Position numbers and translations under genes: made by a program. Below are positions 2,482 through 57,047 of a stretch of 64,000 nt of DNA, piece by piece. Position 1 is the stretch's first letter. Each line of letters opens with the position of its first letter. A model generated the notes under the pieces. The model searched no databases. It saw only the letters and a program-made list of their open reading frames with translations, and was not told where the DNA came from. The stretch covers positions 1 to 64,000 of the forward strand of contig MNWR01000029.1 of the NCBI GenBank assembly GCA_001872725.1. The letters run 5' to 3'. The stretch is from Proteobacteria bacterium CG1_02_64_396 (GTDB lineage Bacteria > Pseudomonadota > MNWR01 > CG1-02-64-396).

Positions 2482-3264
2482 TCATTTGCGGAACGTTTTG
2501 GCTCCGCCACTCAGGGCGAAGGGGGCCAATCTTTTGGTCAGCGGTGAGGCAAATACCTCCCGGAACGAGTGATTCCCAATGTGTTCGAGCGATTGGTGGA
2601 CGTAAGCGCGACGTTTGGGACTTTTTCCCTGTGAAGCGAACAATCCGCGTGCATGTTCGGACAGCATCACGGTTGTCATTTTGTACGCCCAATTCCGGCC
2701 CGCCTGCCCCACCCCGGATGCTTTGAAAAAGCCGAGTCCCGACTTGAGGTCGCCCCTGACGATTTCCTGCATCCCCGTGGCCACCATGCGACGGCGCTGG
2801 GCGAGCCTCTGTTGATCCTTGGGATCCAGGCCGTCTCCAATGCGTCGATCCAGACCCCGTGCAAGAGCGGCATAATCGTATACCGCCGATTTTTTCTTCT
2901 TCCGACTGTTGTAAACAGCAGCGATGTCGTTGCCGATGTGCAACGAATGGACCCCCGTTTGATTGGGCTCGTAGATCACCTGCCGATTAAGCGTCTGTGC
3001 CAGTTTTCTTTTTTCCTTCAGAGAGGGCATCGATCGTGCCTGTTGCGATCCCGAAACGATGCCGGTCAGTTCGGCATTCATGTTGCCAAAGTCGAGAGAC
3101 TTGAACTTGGAAACCCCCTCCAAGGTACGACTCCCGGGAATGCCCACTCCACCCTTCATATTGAGGTAGGGCTGTTTGTTGCCGAGATCGAATGAGGCTT
3201 GGGCTTCGGTTGTAGAGATCGTCTTTTGACTGCGGGTCCGCGATGAAATGGCTTCGATGTCCAT
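2482..3264 (-). CDS. Hypothetical protein, 260 aa, T6SS-linked cassette
   Basis: Starts MDIEAISSRTRSQKTIST. The N-terminal third is Ser/Thr-rich, the middle has a basic stretch (NSRKKKKSAVYDYAAL), and the rest is predicted helical with many Arg and Gln residues (DPKDQQRLAQRRRMVATGMQ). No signal peptide, membrane helix or recognised domain is visible. It is the last gene of a three-gene unit (GNAT protein, 119-aa protein, this protein) bounded by the 169-bp elements. Its base composition is visibly less GC-rich than the T6SS core, which suggests separate acquisition. A role as a secreted effector or its accessory is possible from position but has no motif support. Confidence 0.6.
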   Translation of the reverse strand: MDIEAISSRTRSQKTISTTEAQASFDLGNKQPYLNMKGGVGIPGSRTLEGVSKFKSLDFGNMNAELTGIVSGSQQARSMPSLKEKRKLAQTLNRQVIYEPNQTGVHSLHIGNDIAAVYNSRKKKKSAVYDYAALARGLDRRIGDGLDPKDQQRLAQRRRMVATGMQEIVRGDLKSGLGFFKASGVGQAGRNWAYKMTTVMLSEHARGLFASQGKSPKRRAYVHQSLEHIGNHSFREVFASPLTKRLAPFALSGGAKTFRK

Positions 3265-3328
3265 CAGATTATTTCCTTGTCGTCAACTTATCAGCGGCAG
3301 GAGCGCCTCGGTATGTTTTCACACCACG

Positions 3329-3688
3329 TCACCAAAGTTTTTTTAGGATTGTTGAAAGAGACGTTTCCCTCTTTTTATAGGGGACAAGCGTGTTGAGATC
3401 ACCCTCGTAATGATGGTTTTTTTGCTTGTTGTATTTTTTGATCTGATGACCGCGATCCAGGGCGACAACAAATTGTTTTTCGTGTCCAAAATGGACGTCG
3501 TGCGTAGGTCCGCCCACATACGTATGCGTCTGATCCTCCCATGTTCGGGTGGGGTGTTGGACGGTATTGATCGGAACATGCTTCTTCCTGTTCAAGGCGG
3601 CACCAAACATGGCGGCATAATCCATGGATTTGGCCACAAGATGTTTTGCCGCGGCCGTAGGTTTTAAAATCTGGGGTAGGAAACTCAT
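3329..3688 (-). CDS. Hypothetical basic protein, 119 aa
   Basis: Starts MSFLPQILKPTAAAKHLVAK and ends in a Lys-rich helix (TLVPYKKRETSLSTILKKLW). It is rich in His, Lys and Gln (GHQIKKYNKQKNHHYEGDL). Its ATG overlaps the stop of the upstream GNAT gene in an ATGA junction, so the two are probably translationally coupled. The DNA is AT-richer than the rest of the window. No family was recognised. Small size, coupling and position beside unknown proteins would fit an immunity or chaperone-like partner, but this is inference only. Confidence 0.6.
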   Translation of the reverse strand: MSFLPQILKPTAAAKHLVAKSMDYAAMFGAALNRKKHVPINTVQHPTRTWEDQTHTYVGGPTHDVHFGHEKQFVVALDRGHQIKKYNKQKNHHYEGDLNTLVPYKKRETSLSTILKKLW

Positions 3689-4827
3689 GACACGATCCTT
3701 GATTCATGGTTATACCGGTCGATAAAAACAACCGGCAACTGAAGTACAACTTTTGAACCCATAACCGTTAAAAAATTGTTTAATTCATTTGCGGTTGGTT
3801 GTCCCTCCAGGTTCCGTGCCGAACCGTAAAATACCTCGTTGTCATGCGGCGCCTGCGCCCGCACCTCTAACCGTTCGAATCCCGGTTTTTCCAGCATTCG
3901 TTGTGAAGCGTGGTTGTGCTCGAAGACCTTGGCGTAGCAGGCGTGCAGCCCGGTGGTTTGCCTCGCCATGTCGAGCAACAGCTCCGTCGCTTGGGTGGCC
4001 AGGCCATAACCTCGGAAGTCGGCGCCGAGCCAGTAGAAAACAAACCCCACCCCCCCGTGCTGAATCAGGTTGACCGAGCCGATAAAACCCCAGTCTTCGT
4101 GCAGCACCGCAAACGCAAGCTGGTCGCCCAGCGCCTCGTTTTCGGCGATCCAACGGTGCCAGTGGTCGTCGCCCTCGAAGGTCGGCAGGCAGCACAGCTC
4201 GGCGATGTCGGGATCGAAGTACTGCCAGGCAAAATCGGGCAGATGGTGGTGGCCCAGCGGCTCCAACCGCAGCGGCCCCGAGGTTTGCTCCAGCACCGGG
4301 GCGAAGGGGTGATCGAGAAGGCGCTCTTGCCAAGCGGCCAGGGCTTCACGCAGTGCCCCAGCCGGAGCGAACCCCGGCTCGTTCCAATCGAGACGGCGGC
4401 AGAGGATTGATGCCTCTTCGGTTTGCCCCAAATGCCACAACGCCCCGCAACACCCCAACCGTTCGGCGGGATGCAGGGGGCGCAGCGCTTCGAGCCCCTC
4501 GGCCGCCGCCAGCAGCAGCGGCCAGTCGCTCCAGCACTGGGCCAGATCGAACAGTTGCTCCCGCTCCCGCCCGTTCATGGCCCAGCCGTACCGCTGCCAC
4601 CCCTCGCGCAGACCGAGCAACCAGTCGATGCGGTCGCCTCCGGCCAACTCGTCGGCGCGGGCCAGGATTTCGGGCAGATGGTGTTTGATGGCAGCCCCCG
4701 ACCATTGCTGCTCCGCCAACGCTGCTGCCAACCCCTCCAGGTTCGAGGGCGGGGACGCAAGGGGAAGGGGGCTGGACGATCCGGTTTGTTTGGCATGCAT
4801 GGTGGTCAGATCCTTCATCGATTTCAC
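3685..4827 (-). CDS. GNAT family N-acetyltransferase with helical N-terminal region
   Basis: About 380 residues. The N-terminal half (to about residue 185) is Leu/Ala/Trp-rich and helical, with repeated LL..AAEGLEAL-type segments. The C-terminal part is a RimJ/RimL-like acetyltransferase: substrate strand GPLRLEPLGHHHLPDF, a central IGSVNLI strand, the acetyl-CoA loop region GADFRGYGLATQATELLLDM and a final block ending MLEKPGFERLEV. Several in-frame ATGs occur in the first ten codons; the first is used here. About 40 residues follow the usual GNAT end. It heads the 4.8-2.5 kb cassette. GNAT proteins of this two-part form occur near T6SS genes, but the substrate here is unknown. Confidence 0.7.
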   Translation of the reverse strand: MKSMKDLTTMHAKQTGSSSPLPLASPPSNLEGLAAALAEQQWSGAAIKHHLPEILARADELAGGDRIDWLLGLREGWQRYGWAMNGREREQLFDLAQCWSDWPLLLAAAEGLEALRPLHPAERLGCCGALWHLGQTEEASILCRRLDWNEPGFAPAGALREALAAWQERLLDHPFAPVLEQTSGPLRLEPLGHHHLPDFAWQYFDPDIAELCCLPTFEGDDHWHRWIAENEALGDQLAFAVLHEDWGFIGSVNLIQHGGVGFVFYWLGADFRGYGLATQATELLLDMARQTTGLHACYAKVFEHNHASQRMLEKPGFERLEVRAQAPHDNEVFYGSARNLEGQPTANELNNFLTVMGSKVVLQLPVVFIDRYNHESRIVS

Positions 4828-4888
4828 CGTTCGACAGCTTGGAGAGGCTCAATGCTTCATCGCTGCTCGCGGAAATTGCTGGGAAGCT

Positions 4889-5057
4889 CTAGGAGTCTGT
4901 CGGACTTGAGATCGTCCTACTGCGCCGGCGGGTAATCGGTCCAAATTTCCCCGGTTTTTCGTCACATAGCGACCACTATGATCCTCAAAACCGTGAAAAT
5001 TTGACCTCGATTCCCCACTCGGCTCGCTACGGACGCTCAAGCCCGACAGACTCCTAG
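4889..5057. repeat. 169-bp inverted-repeat element, copy 2
   Basis: Same length, same termini and nearly the same sequence as the copy at 2268-2436; only a few scattered substitutions are seen. Its right edge shares the CTAG with a second, different element at 5055-5318. The pair of copies brackets the cassette holding the GNAT, 119-aa and 260-aa genes. Confidence 0.8.
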
Positions 5058-5318
5058 AAGCCTGTTGGACTATCGGTCCACCACCCCGCCCTCCCCGAAG
5101 CGTTATCCCCGCGCAGGCGACGTGGTAGGAGCGCCGCCCTCGGCGCGATTACGTCCCGCCCCCCCCGCAGCGTCCCCATCCCCCCCGCGACCACTGGATC
5201 CCCGCCTGCGCGGGGATAACGCTTCGGGGGGGCTTCAGGTCAGGCCTGGACCAACGCAGGAGCCACTGCGCGTAGGAGGTCACCCCGGGGCCGAACCTCA
5301 AGTCCGACAGACTCCTAG
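5055..5318. repeat. Compound repeat with long internal inverted repeat
   Basis: The outer ends resemble those of the 169-bp elements: CTAGAAGCCTGTTGGACT on the left and CTCAAGTCCGACAGACTCCTAG-type on the right. The interior differs. CCCCGAAGCGTTATCCCC at about 5092 is repeated in reverse complement at about 5231, giving arms of about 27 bp around a REP-like GTAGGAGCGCCGCCCTCGG unit at 5125-5149. No gene is seen. Its right edge supplies the TAG stop codon of the gene at 5315-6472. Confidence 0.65.
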
Positions 5319-54967: not shown

Positions 54968-55594
54968 ATGGTGCCCACCACCCACGACCCGATCACCCGC
55001 ATCCTCCATCTGGGCATGATGGTCTTTGGCCTGACCGCCTTTTTCACCGGCCTGATCGGCGATGAAGAGCATGAGGAGGAGGAGCACGAGCACGGCGGGG
55101 CGGTAGCCGATGCCATGCCTGAGGGGGGGGAATCCCTGCTGTTCGAGATCCACGAGATGAGCGGCCTGCTCACCGGGGCGGTGGTGCTCACCCGCATTCT
55201 TTGGGGCTTCATCGGCCCCGAGACGCAGCGTTTTTCGTTCTGGTTTCCCCTGGCCAAGGCGCGCCTGCTCGAAACCGCCGAAGACATCGGCAAGCTGCTG
55301 CGTCGCATCACCCCCGACCGTCCCTCCCACGGTGGTTTGGCGGGACTGGTGCAGTTTCTCGGTATTGCCACCTTCACCTGGATGGGGATGACGGGGGGGA
55401 TCCTCTTCACCTTCCTGCCCGAGGGGGCGAGCGAGCCCAAGGGTTGGCTGGAGGTGATCGCCGAGGGGCACGAGGTGGGCGAGCCGCTCATCATGCTCTT
55501 TTTGCTGCTTCATGTTGGCGGGGCGATCACGCACCACATCGCTGGCCACCCGATCTGGCATCGGATGTTTCCATTCATCAAGCCCAAGGTCTGA
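54968..55594 (+). CDS. Cytochrome b561 family membrane protein
   Basis: 208 residues with four hydrophobic helices: HLGMMVFGLTAFFTGLIG, MSGLLTGAVVLTRILWGF, FLGIATFTWMGMTGGILFT and LIMLFLLLHVGGAITHHIAG. His residues in helices 1, 2 and 4 (RILHLG, EIHEMSG, LLHVGG, THHIAG) are the likely heme ligands. An acidic His/Glu-rich loop (EEHEEEEHEHGG) after helix 1 could bind metal. AGGAG precedes the ATG. It is a quinone-linked electron carrier by family; no partner gene is adjacent. Confidence 0.85.
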   Translation: MVPTTHDPITRILHLGMMVFGLTAFFTGLIGDEEHEEEEHEHGGAVADAMPEGGESLLFEIHEMSGLLTGAVVLTRILWGFIGPETQRFSFWFPLAKARLLETAEDIGKLLRRITPDRPSHGGLAGLVQFLGIATFTWMGMTGGILFTFLPEGASEPKGWLEVIAEGHEVGEPLIMLFLLLHVGGAITHHIAGHPIWHRMFPFIKPKV

Positions 55595-55611
55595 GTGATC
55601 GGGGCGCCCCC

Positions 55612-55639
55612 TTGACGAAGGGCGCCCCCTTCCCATACT
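55612..55639 (+). promoter_or_regulatory. Candidate sigma70 promoter of the argD leader
   Basis: TTGACG and CATACT are separated by 16 bases. The start would be at about 55646, two bases before the leader ATG, so the leader would be read without a 5' untranslated region. Confidence 0.5.
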
Positions 55640-55647
55640 CCCGCGCC

Positions 55648-55743
55648 ATGTTCACGAACCTCTCCCTCAAACGAGCCGCAGCCGCTGCCACCCGACGTCG
55701 TCGGGCGGTCGATGGATCTGCACGCGAGGTCGTGATCGGATAG
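55648..55743 (+). CDS. Putative arginine leader peptide of argD
   Basis: A 31-codon frame ([20 protein letters not shown] and eleven more residues) with four Arg codons in a row (codons 16-19, 55693-55704) and two more. The Arg codons lie in a perfect hairpin (CCCGAC/GTCGGG, 55691-55705). A terminator follows 30 bases after the stop, ahead of an acetylornithine aminotransferase gene. This is the layout of a ribosome-mediated attenuator. No ribosome-binding site is seen, so translation would be leaderless. The peptide is inferred, not homologous to a known one. Confidence 0.5.
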
Positions 55744-55772
55744 GGCAAAACCCCCATCCACCCGCCTTGAAG

Positions 55773-55807
55773 AAACCGCAGATCCCACCGGGTTTGCGGT
55801 TTTTTTG
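55773..55807 (+). terminator. Terminator/attenuator upstream of argD
   Basis: AAACCGCA and TGCGGTTT form an eight-pair stem, followed by seven T residues. It lies between the leader frame and the argD start at 55869, so it must be read through for argD expression from the leader promoter. Confidence 0.75.
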
Positions 55808-55868
55808 TTGGCGCGGGGGATGGCCTGGATCACCCCGCTGCCATTGTGATCCAGGCCAGGAGGCACCC

Positions 55869-57047
55869 ATGTCCCAACCCTCATCCTCGCCCCGGTTTTC
55901 ACCCATCATGCCCACCGCTGTGCGGCCCGAGATCGTCTTTGCCAAGGGGGAGGGTTCCTGGCTCTGGGACGAGAGCGGCAAGCGTTACCTTGATTTCATT
56001 CAGGGTTGGGCGGTCAACGCCCTGGGCCACTGCCACCCGGCGGTCGTCCAGGCGCTGCAAACCCAGGCGGCAACCCTGCTCAATCCCAGCCCCGGCTTCT
56101 ACAACCCCGCCATGCTCAAACTCGCCGGACTGCTGACCGACCATTCGGGCTTCGATCACGTCTTTTTCGCCAGCTCGGGGGCCGAAGCCAACGAGGGGGC
56201 GATCAAGCTGGCTCGCAAGTGGGGGACGCTGCACAAGGGGGGCGCCCACCGGATCATCACCTTTGAGAGCGGCTTTCATGGCCGGACGCTCGCCACCATG
56301 GCAGCCTCGGGCAAACCGGGCTGGGAGCAGCTCTTCACCCCCCACATCCCCGGATTCATCAAGCTCCCTTTCAACGATCTGGCGGCGGTCGAACGGGCGT
56401 TGGACGAGTCGGTGGTGGCGGTGATGCTGGAGCCGGTGCAGGGGGAGGGGGGGGTGATTCCGGCGACGGTCGCGTTCATGCAGGGGCTGCGTCGGTTGAC
56501 CCATGAACGCCATGCCCTGCTCATTGCCGACGAGGTGCAGACCGGCATGGGGCGCTGCGGCGATCTTTTCGCCCATCAAGGCTACGGAGTGCAGCCCGAC
56601 ATCATGACCCTCGGCAAAGGGATCGGCGGCGGGGTGCCGTTGGCGGCATTGCTGGCGACCAAGGCGGTCAGCTGCTTCGCCCCCGGCGATCAGGGGGGGA
56701 CCTACAGCGGCAACGCCCTGACCTGCGCCGCCGGGGTGGCGGTGCTGCAAACCCTGCTGGCGCCCGGCTTCATGGAGGGGGTGCGGGCCAAGGGGGCGCT
56801 GCTGCGGCAAACCCTGGAGGGGGTCTCGGCCAACTTCGGGTTGGGCGCGGTGCGAGGGCGGGGATTGCTGCTGGCTCTCGACACCGGCAACCGCGACGCT
56901 CCGGCCATTGTGGCGGCAGCGCGGGAGGCAGGATTGCTGCTCAACGCCCCCCGGCCCAACGCCTTGCGCTTCATGCCGGCGCTGACCGTCAGCGCGGGGG
57001 AGATCCGGCTGCTGGGGTCGATGCTGGAAGCGGTGTTGGCAAGATGA
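55869..57047 (+). CDS. argD: Acetylornithine aminotransferase family protein
   Basis: 392 residues of class III PLP aminotransferases. Motifs: [89 protein letters not shown], then [20 protein letters not shown] (Lys for PLP) and [13 protein letters not shown]. In arginine synthesis it transaminates N-acetylglutamate semialdehyde; the same fold may also serve lysine synthesis. The ATG follows AGGAGG. An upstream codon would run through the attenuator hairpin and was rejected. The argE start lies at 63905. Confidence 0.88.

Follow-up and report, generated by a model that had tools for sequence, protein, structure and literature searches.

The locus lies on contig MNWR01000029.1 of Proteobacteria bacterium CG1_02_64_396, in a window of 64,000 nucleotides (the whole stretch of DNA that was analyzed). 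A putative cytochrome-b561-like gene, named from its sequence, ends at 55594 and is followed in the same direction by an argD-type acetylornithine transaminase gene. The approximately 270 bases between the two genes hold a complete attenuator anatomy, with a promoter, a short reading frame with consecutive Arg codons, an antiterminator arm and an intrinsic terminator (Table 1). The original prediction had placed a probable arginine attenuator upstream of an acetylornithine aminotransferase gene, and the match to NF002985 above its cut-off agrees with this naming of the downstream gene. The start codon of argD is the ATG at 55869, in agreement with the end coordinate given in that prediction.

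Table 1. Features of the argD leader region of CG1_02_64_396 (contig MNWR01000029.1)
Feature	Position	Strand	Basis or remark
9-bp inverted repeat GGGGCGCCC..GGGCGCCCC around the -35 hexamer	55601-55629	.	sequence; weak
-35 hexamer TTGACG	55612-55617	+	promoter scan
-10 hexamer CATACT	55634-55639	+	promoter scan; ends 8 nt before leader ATG
Predicted transcription start	55646-55648	+	at the A of the leader ATG or up to 2 nt upstream of it; from promoter spacing
Leader peptide frame	55648-55743	+	ATG 55648 to TAG 55743; 31 codons plus stop
Region 1:2 hairpin (protector)	55678-55721	+	GCAG 55678-55681 with CUGC 55718-55721 around the Arg-codon hairpin; from folds
Control codons CGA CGT CGT CGG (Arg16-Arg19)	55693-55704	+	sequence
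Region 2, antiterminator arm GGATCTGC	55714-55721	+	complementarity, folds; begins 9 nt past the Arg run
Intrinsic terminator	55773-55806	+	13-bp stem 55773-55802, loop CACC, T tract 55800-55806 (seven T)
Region 3 GCAGATCC	55778-55785	+	exact complement of region 2; most of the terminator 5' arm
Second perfect hairpin, 13 bp, TGGCCTGGATCAC..GTGATCCAGGCCA	55821-55858	+	between terminator and argD Shine-Dalgarno
Shine-Dalgarno AGGAGG of argD	55858-55863	+	sequence
argD-type acetylornithine transaminase gene	55869-57047	+	NF002985, 600.5 bits vs cut-off 568

The promoter-like pair of the original prediction (TTGACG-16-CATACT) was recovered as the sole sigma-70 match in 1.4 kb (shuffle mean 0.1), and the leader frame with four Arg codons in a row and the canonical terminator were found as described there. 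A hairpin over the Arg codons had also been proposed; it is formed by CCCGAC/GUCGGG (55691-55705) with -12.8 kcal/mol in context. The terminator stem has an energy of -18.3, which falls to -22.6 when the flanks are included. Its structure is plain, although a simple terminator scanner did not list it: the scanner counts only T that come after the stem, and here the T tract begins within the stem. Compared to shuffles, the complete leader is much more stably folded (z -4.1), and an ATG frame with four consecutive Arg codons occurred in 0.43% of 20,000 dinucleotide shuffles of 55600-55868.

We searched the leader fold for an antiterminator, as had been suggested, and found the pairing of region 2 with region 3, which are exactly complementary (Table 1). 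In folds of the untranslated leader, the CUGC end of region 2 pairs with the upstream GCAG. This protector hairpin, which joins the control-codon region to the antiterminator arm, hides region 2 and leaves the terminator free. When the Arg run was masked and folding was performed before the 3' arm of the terminator is made, the antiterminator formed. The optimum of the full-length leader was the terminator, both masked and unmasked, and therefore the choice between the two structures would have to be kinetic, like in classical attenuators. For the CG1_02_64_396 leader alone, the antiterminator was marginal compared to shuffles (z -1.40, p 0.083), with a pairing of -15.5 versus an expected -7.9, which is better than that with 28 of 29 foreign arms.

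The same comparison was extended to 30 representatives of the leaders described below. Pairing of the segment after the Arg run with the terminator 5' arm had a mean z of -1.97, with 17 representatives below p 0.05. Tested against shuffles of the segment itself, the antiterminator pairing reached a combined p of 1.4e-16, which overstates the certainty because the representatives are partly non-independent. Cognate pairing was stronger than cross-lineage pairing in 27 of 30, with a mean gain of 3.4 kcal/mol (Wilcoxon 2e-6); in the other three (L092, L101 and L105) it was no better than expected. The pairing typically begins 10-24 nt after the Arg run, which is just outside the footprint of a stalled ribosome.

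To assess conservation, we compared the upstream regions of one argD subfamily at 111 loci. These comprise 80 named loci, 24 from a phylum-wide draw (399 genomes, 33 of which carry this argD subfamily), the CG1_02_64_396 locus and six earlier relatives. Both leader and terminator were detected at 70 loci, neither at 30, the terminator only at 10 and the leader only at one. At two of the terminator-only loci (L049 and L096) the terminator had been mis-picked and both parts are present, so that about 72 of the 111 loci keep the Arg run and the terminator. Among the other eight, four terminators lie far upstream (-340 to -374), and the terminator of L070 directly follows the stop codon of the preceding gene. 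The single leader-only locus (L119) has a poor promoter score, and its leader looks like a chance frame. A terminator retained after loss of the frame or the Arg run had been named as the observation that would speak against an attenuator; across the 111 loci, nothing resembling an attenuator without an Arg run was seen (L057, L063 and L078 were judged by eye). The element is not peculiar to one genome, and what had been noticed is an unnamed, widespread attenuator.

Orthologous argD genes with this anatomy upstream, in unrelated gene neighborhoods, were found in Paraburkholderia (MNRIQSELRRRRSPLP) and Burkholderia (MNRFLSALRRRRSPLRPDAAGSSRTRA), Ralstonia (MNSAMIRRRARTLLPSGVPRG) and Cupriavidus, Herbaspirillum (MNATTTFLRRRSQPQRGLPCA), Undibacterium (MKISADMSSPNIVRRRRSLCEPGRMC), Dechloromonas (MNFTASALRRRHTAARR..., partial), Bradyrhizobium (MINARTHQRTEMLRRRFRDDERVRHVRRRR) and family f5 (MYTEQIINRIYMQVNGADIRRRRYQSVCAIKKCLFTS), which we take to be Mariprofundus-like. 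The anatomy was absent from Polynucleobacter, Achromobacter/Bordetella and most of the Rhodocyclaceae seen, and also from those members of families f2, f14, f50 and f55 that were sampled. Beyond the order of AUG, Arg run, arm and terminator, little sequence or structure is common between lineages. Covariation was slight among 21 Bradyrhizobium-type leaders because their arms are nearly invariant. One of them (L099) shows a three-way change of arm, terminator partner and leader, and three others contain mismatches, which together is not decisive. In addition, these leaders contain (alignment columns 40-60 and 80-110) two Arg runs, a conserved RDDD stretch that is explained by the stem with the Arg codons and, where the leader frame stops, a small hairpin formed by GCUGA/UCAGC.

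Next, we analyzed the reading frame in a blind test. An AUG was picked solely by its position 6-9 nt downstream of a promoter with a score of 9 or more out of 12, for which 44 loci qualified, many of them close relatives. At least two consecutive Arg codons were present in 43 of the 44 promoter-chosen frames and at least three in 38, compared to none with three or more in either of the other two frames. After de-duplication (n = 28), 27 frames had at least two and 22 at least three, again with no run of three or more in the other frames. Since runs of at least three are confined to this frame, it is the peptide frame that is selected and not a GC-rich hairpin alone. Synonymous changes inside genera showed too little variation for a test; therefore, the codon differences from lineage to lineage were used together with the frame test. 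The run codons vary between lineages with Arg retained.

CGA, CGC and CGU are read by tRNA-Arg(ICG). In the 30 representatives these three codons make up 96 of 98 run codons, and the longest run is headed by CGA in 28. CGA alone accounts for 35 of the 98, compared to 3% of Arg codons in argD genes (odds ratio 18, from loci that are not fully independent). These counts suggest that the attenuator would report the charging of tRNA-Arg(ICG), with the slow codon placed first.

That the leader would lack a ribosome-binding site had been recognized in the original prediction. Indeed, no Shine-Dalgarno core precedes the leader ATG, and this geometry is conserved and not a flaw of a single locus. Among the 70 loci with leader and terminator, the -10 element ends 6-9 nt before the ATG in 60, and an SD-like core was found in only three; the relatives share the promoter-to-ATG spacing of the CG1_02_64_396 leader. 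As there is no Shine-Dalgarno sequence and the frame starts 8 nt after the -10 element, the leader mRNA of CG1_02_64_396 is probably leaderless. A start at the AUG is documented for the trp attenuator RNA of S. meliloti, which begins at the AUG of trpL (PMC7298713), and many leaderless mRNAs occur in B. cenocepacia and C. metallidurans (PMC4603805, PMC7563307).

The features of an attenuator found at the locus comprise a promoter with a short Arg-run frame, a terminator, an antiterminator arm, a protector hairpin and a gene of the arginine pathway downstream. The antiterminator arm and the anatomy conserved across lineages support the interpretation proposed originally, and we consider it very probable that the single gene argD is controlled here by ribosome-mediated transcription attenuation in response to arginine. 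From the arrangement of these parts we infer the following course of events. RNA polymerase would begin at or beside the leader AUG, and a ribosome would initiate on this leaderless AUG. With ample charged tRNA-Arg, the ribosome would clear CGA CGU CGU CGG; once it has passed the run, the Arg-codon region could pair with region 2 (GGAUCUGC), and sequestration of region 2 would let the terminator form, ending transcription about 160 nt out. With scarce charged tRNA-Arg, the ribosome would stall on the run and cover region 1. Region 2, just past the stalled footprint, could then pair with GCAGAUCC once the terminator arm is made. This antiterminator would block the terminator, and argD would be transcribed and then translated from its own Shine-Dalgarno sequence.

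In the CG1_02_64_396 leader, about 20 nt separate region 2 from the stop codon downstream of it, and a ribosome that has reached the stop would therefore leave region 2 uncovered, unlike in trp. Since the frame runs past the arm here and in Bradyrhizobium, termination in these leaders must depend on the 1:2 hairpin re-forming. In the short Burkholderiaceae leaders (such as that of Paraburkholderia) the stop codon is close behind the Arg run, and, as in trp, a ribosome at the stop would therefore be positioned on the antiterminator arm or close to it. This is a true difference between two leader designs.

We weighed three other explanations for this region. The terminator might merely end the preceding gene, which has the same direction, and the frame might be a chance ORF in GC-rich DNA, as frames with RRR arose in 3.6% of shuffles. 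This is hardly credible, since a promoter and 180 nt lie between the preceding gene and the terminator, the anatomy is conserved in unrelated neighborhoods, and the Arg4 frame together with a run of seven T did not appear once in the 20,000 shuffles mentioned above (joint probability less than 1 in 20,000). Alternatively, a ligand riboswitch or a protein-dependent antiterminator could act here, and the Arg-rich frame would merely result from the conservation of a GC-rich hairpin (CGACGUCGUCG). The shape of the Arg-codon hairpin is indeed conserved in several lineages (in Bradyrhizobium as CGUCGUCGC/GCGACGAUG). We regard this explanation as extremely unlikely, as the lineages have little in common beyond the order of the parts, Arg runs of three or more occur in frame 0 only, and the T-box and riboswitch covariance models of Rfam gave no match at the locus.

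The third explanation, a trans-acting sRNA gene with an incidental frame and a separate promoter for argD, arises from the Rfam family RF02884 (BcKCsr7, 'Burkholderia sRNA 7'). This family is classed as an sRNA gene, among the regulatory sRNAs of the B. cepacia complex, and its RNA is abundant enough for detection. It matches the Burkholderia-type leaders L035, L037, L049 and L061, where the model spans from 14 nt before the leader AUG through the U tract. Three observations make an sRNA gene with an incidental frame very unlikely: the leader is invariably the immediate upstream neighbor of one argD subfamily; at 43 of 44 loci the promoter-defined frame contains the Arg run, with runs of three never in the other frames; and Arg stays constant while the run codons vary by lineage. 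The terminated RNA of an attenuator is expected to be sRNA-like, and therefore the two readings of the RNA are compatible. RF02884 is the terminated leader RNA of the attenuator in Burkholderia and relatives.

BcKCsr7 is expressed in B. cenocepacia J2315 from 2,967,641-2,967,787, which is 147 nt by coordinates, and is the same as nc5U30 and RIT34 (PMC10987360). Counted from the A of the AUG, the RF02884 model is 143 positions long, and a start at the AUG would therefore yield roughly the 147 nt listed; the Burkholderia RNA is thus consistent with a leaderless start. The 5' end of the Rfam model takes in the -10 region of the promoter and is not likely to be the transcript start. At 55300-56200 of the window RF02884 gave no match at the gathering threshold, and the model does not reach the non-Burkholderia leaders. 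Sub-threshold Rfam matches of RybB and isrK on the terminator were set aside as generic terminator matches.

Two reviews, one of them PMC10987360, present BcKCsr7 without a link to arginine or a leader peptide. Our search, which covered the open literature, found no description of a bacterial arginine leader peptide or argD attenuator. On bacterial arg attenuation it yielded only carA of Pseudomonas, which is pyrimidine-linked, and neither argD nor arginine is named in the text of the terminator survey by Naville and Gautheret.

The original prediction had set the attenuator against ArgR as the typical regulator in Pseudomonadota. ArgR itself is absent here: the ArgR domain PF01316 had no match in the CG1_02_64_396 genome (98.5% complete), while the search controls E. 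coli, B. subtilis and others were positive. PF01316 was likewise absent in 56 of 60 sampled phylum members and in all 18 named relatives. Six carrier genomes were inspected at argG, argC, argJ, argB and argH, and no Arg leader with a matching terminator was found, which indicates that the attenuator is not a regulon-wide device. In the loci inspected, the attenuated argD is followed by no other recognizable arg genes. The CG1_02_64_396 genome has two acetylornithine transaminases, one of them with the predicted attenuator. A second, canonical argD (L032, about 3023-5180), directly followed by an ornithine carbamoyltransferase (argF)-like gene, has no Arg leader. The leader was thus found neither at other arg genes nor at the second argD, which ties the attenuator to one argD subfamily.

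By its proposed mechanism, the element would belong to the ribosome-mediated attenuators, with arginine and the leaderless frame as new aspects. With the trp, his, leu, ilv, thr and phe attenuators it shares a promoter, a short frame with a run of end-product codons, an antiterminator and a terminator that exclude each other, and a downstream gene of the same pathway; it differs from them in controlling a single transaminase gene and not an operon, and in a leader without a Shine-Dalgarno sequence. To our knowledge, arginine is not among the amino acids with classical ribosome-mediated attenuators. ArgR of E. coli and Bacillus does the same physiological job as a DNA-binding repressor. The fungal arginine attenuator peptide is a short upstream frame responsive to arginine; it is translational, acting by nascent-peptide arrest, with no terminator switch. 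Another such arginine-responsive frame, rbfL of S. aureus, is also translational and occludes the ribosome-binding site through rare Arg codons, again with no terminator switch (PMC13009471). The predicted ribosome-mediated attenuator uORFC-8-2 of Pseudomonadota combines tandem control codons and a terminator as well, but has Cys codons before cysS, an aminoacyl-tRNA synthetase gene, and is confined to Rhodobacterales (PMC8632094).

A parallel to the leaderless terminated leader RNA is rnTrpL/peTrpL of Sinorhizobium meliloti, in which that of trpL accumulates as an sRNA; it responds to tryptophan, and both RNA and peptide have shown trans functions (PMC7298713). An extended reading, in which the leading rare CGA makes charging of tRNA-Arg(ICG) the sensed signal and the terminated leader RNA or the Arg-rich peptide has an additional trans function like rnTrpL/peTrpL, is tentative and, in our judgment, rather doubtful. 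If it were true, the orphan sRNA BcKCsr7 of Burkholderia would gain a function.

Little is known about how arginine synthesis is controlled in Pseudomonadota that have no ArgR, among them many alpha-, beta- and zeta-type lineages. For one of the steps in the pathway, the attenuator offers a concrete answer that can be tested. With it, arginine would join the amino acids sensed by classical attenuation, and a conserved set of predicted leaderless leader peptides is supplied. The sRNA family of Rfam can moreover be reread as the product of an attenuator, and changes in RF02884 expression would therefore be readable as arginine or translation status.

Several other sequence elements were observed. 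The inverted repeat around the -35 hexamer is weak, because its GGGGCGCCC-type sequence has two matches in the window versus 0.84 expected with three mismatches allowed; it may mark the end of the cytochrome-b561-like transcript or serve as an operator or other regulator site. The last base of the second perfect hairpin is the first base of AGGAGG, and its core occurs once in the CG1_02_64_396 genome, with none seen in relatives. In an Oceanospirillales MAG (L096), tandem repeats of about 45 bases (GTACAGTATGCCGCGAGTGCATGGACGCACAGG...) lie between the attenuator terminator and argD, from about -230 to -60. A Marinobacterium-labelled MAG (L105) has a divergent leader with RRQLR and no detectable antiterminator, and a divergent leader of family f5 (L133) combines RRRR with the SVCA tail common to its sister leaders.
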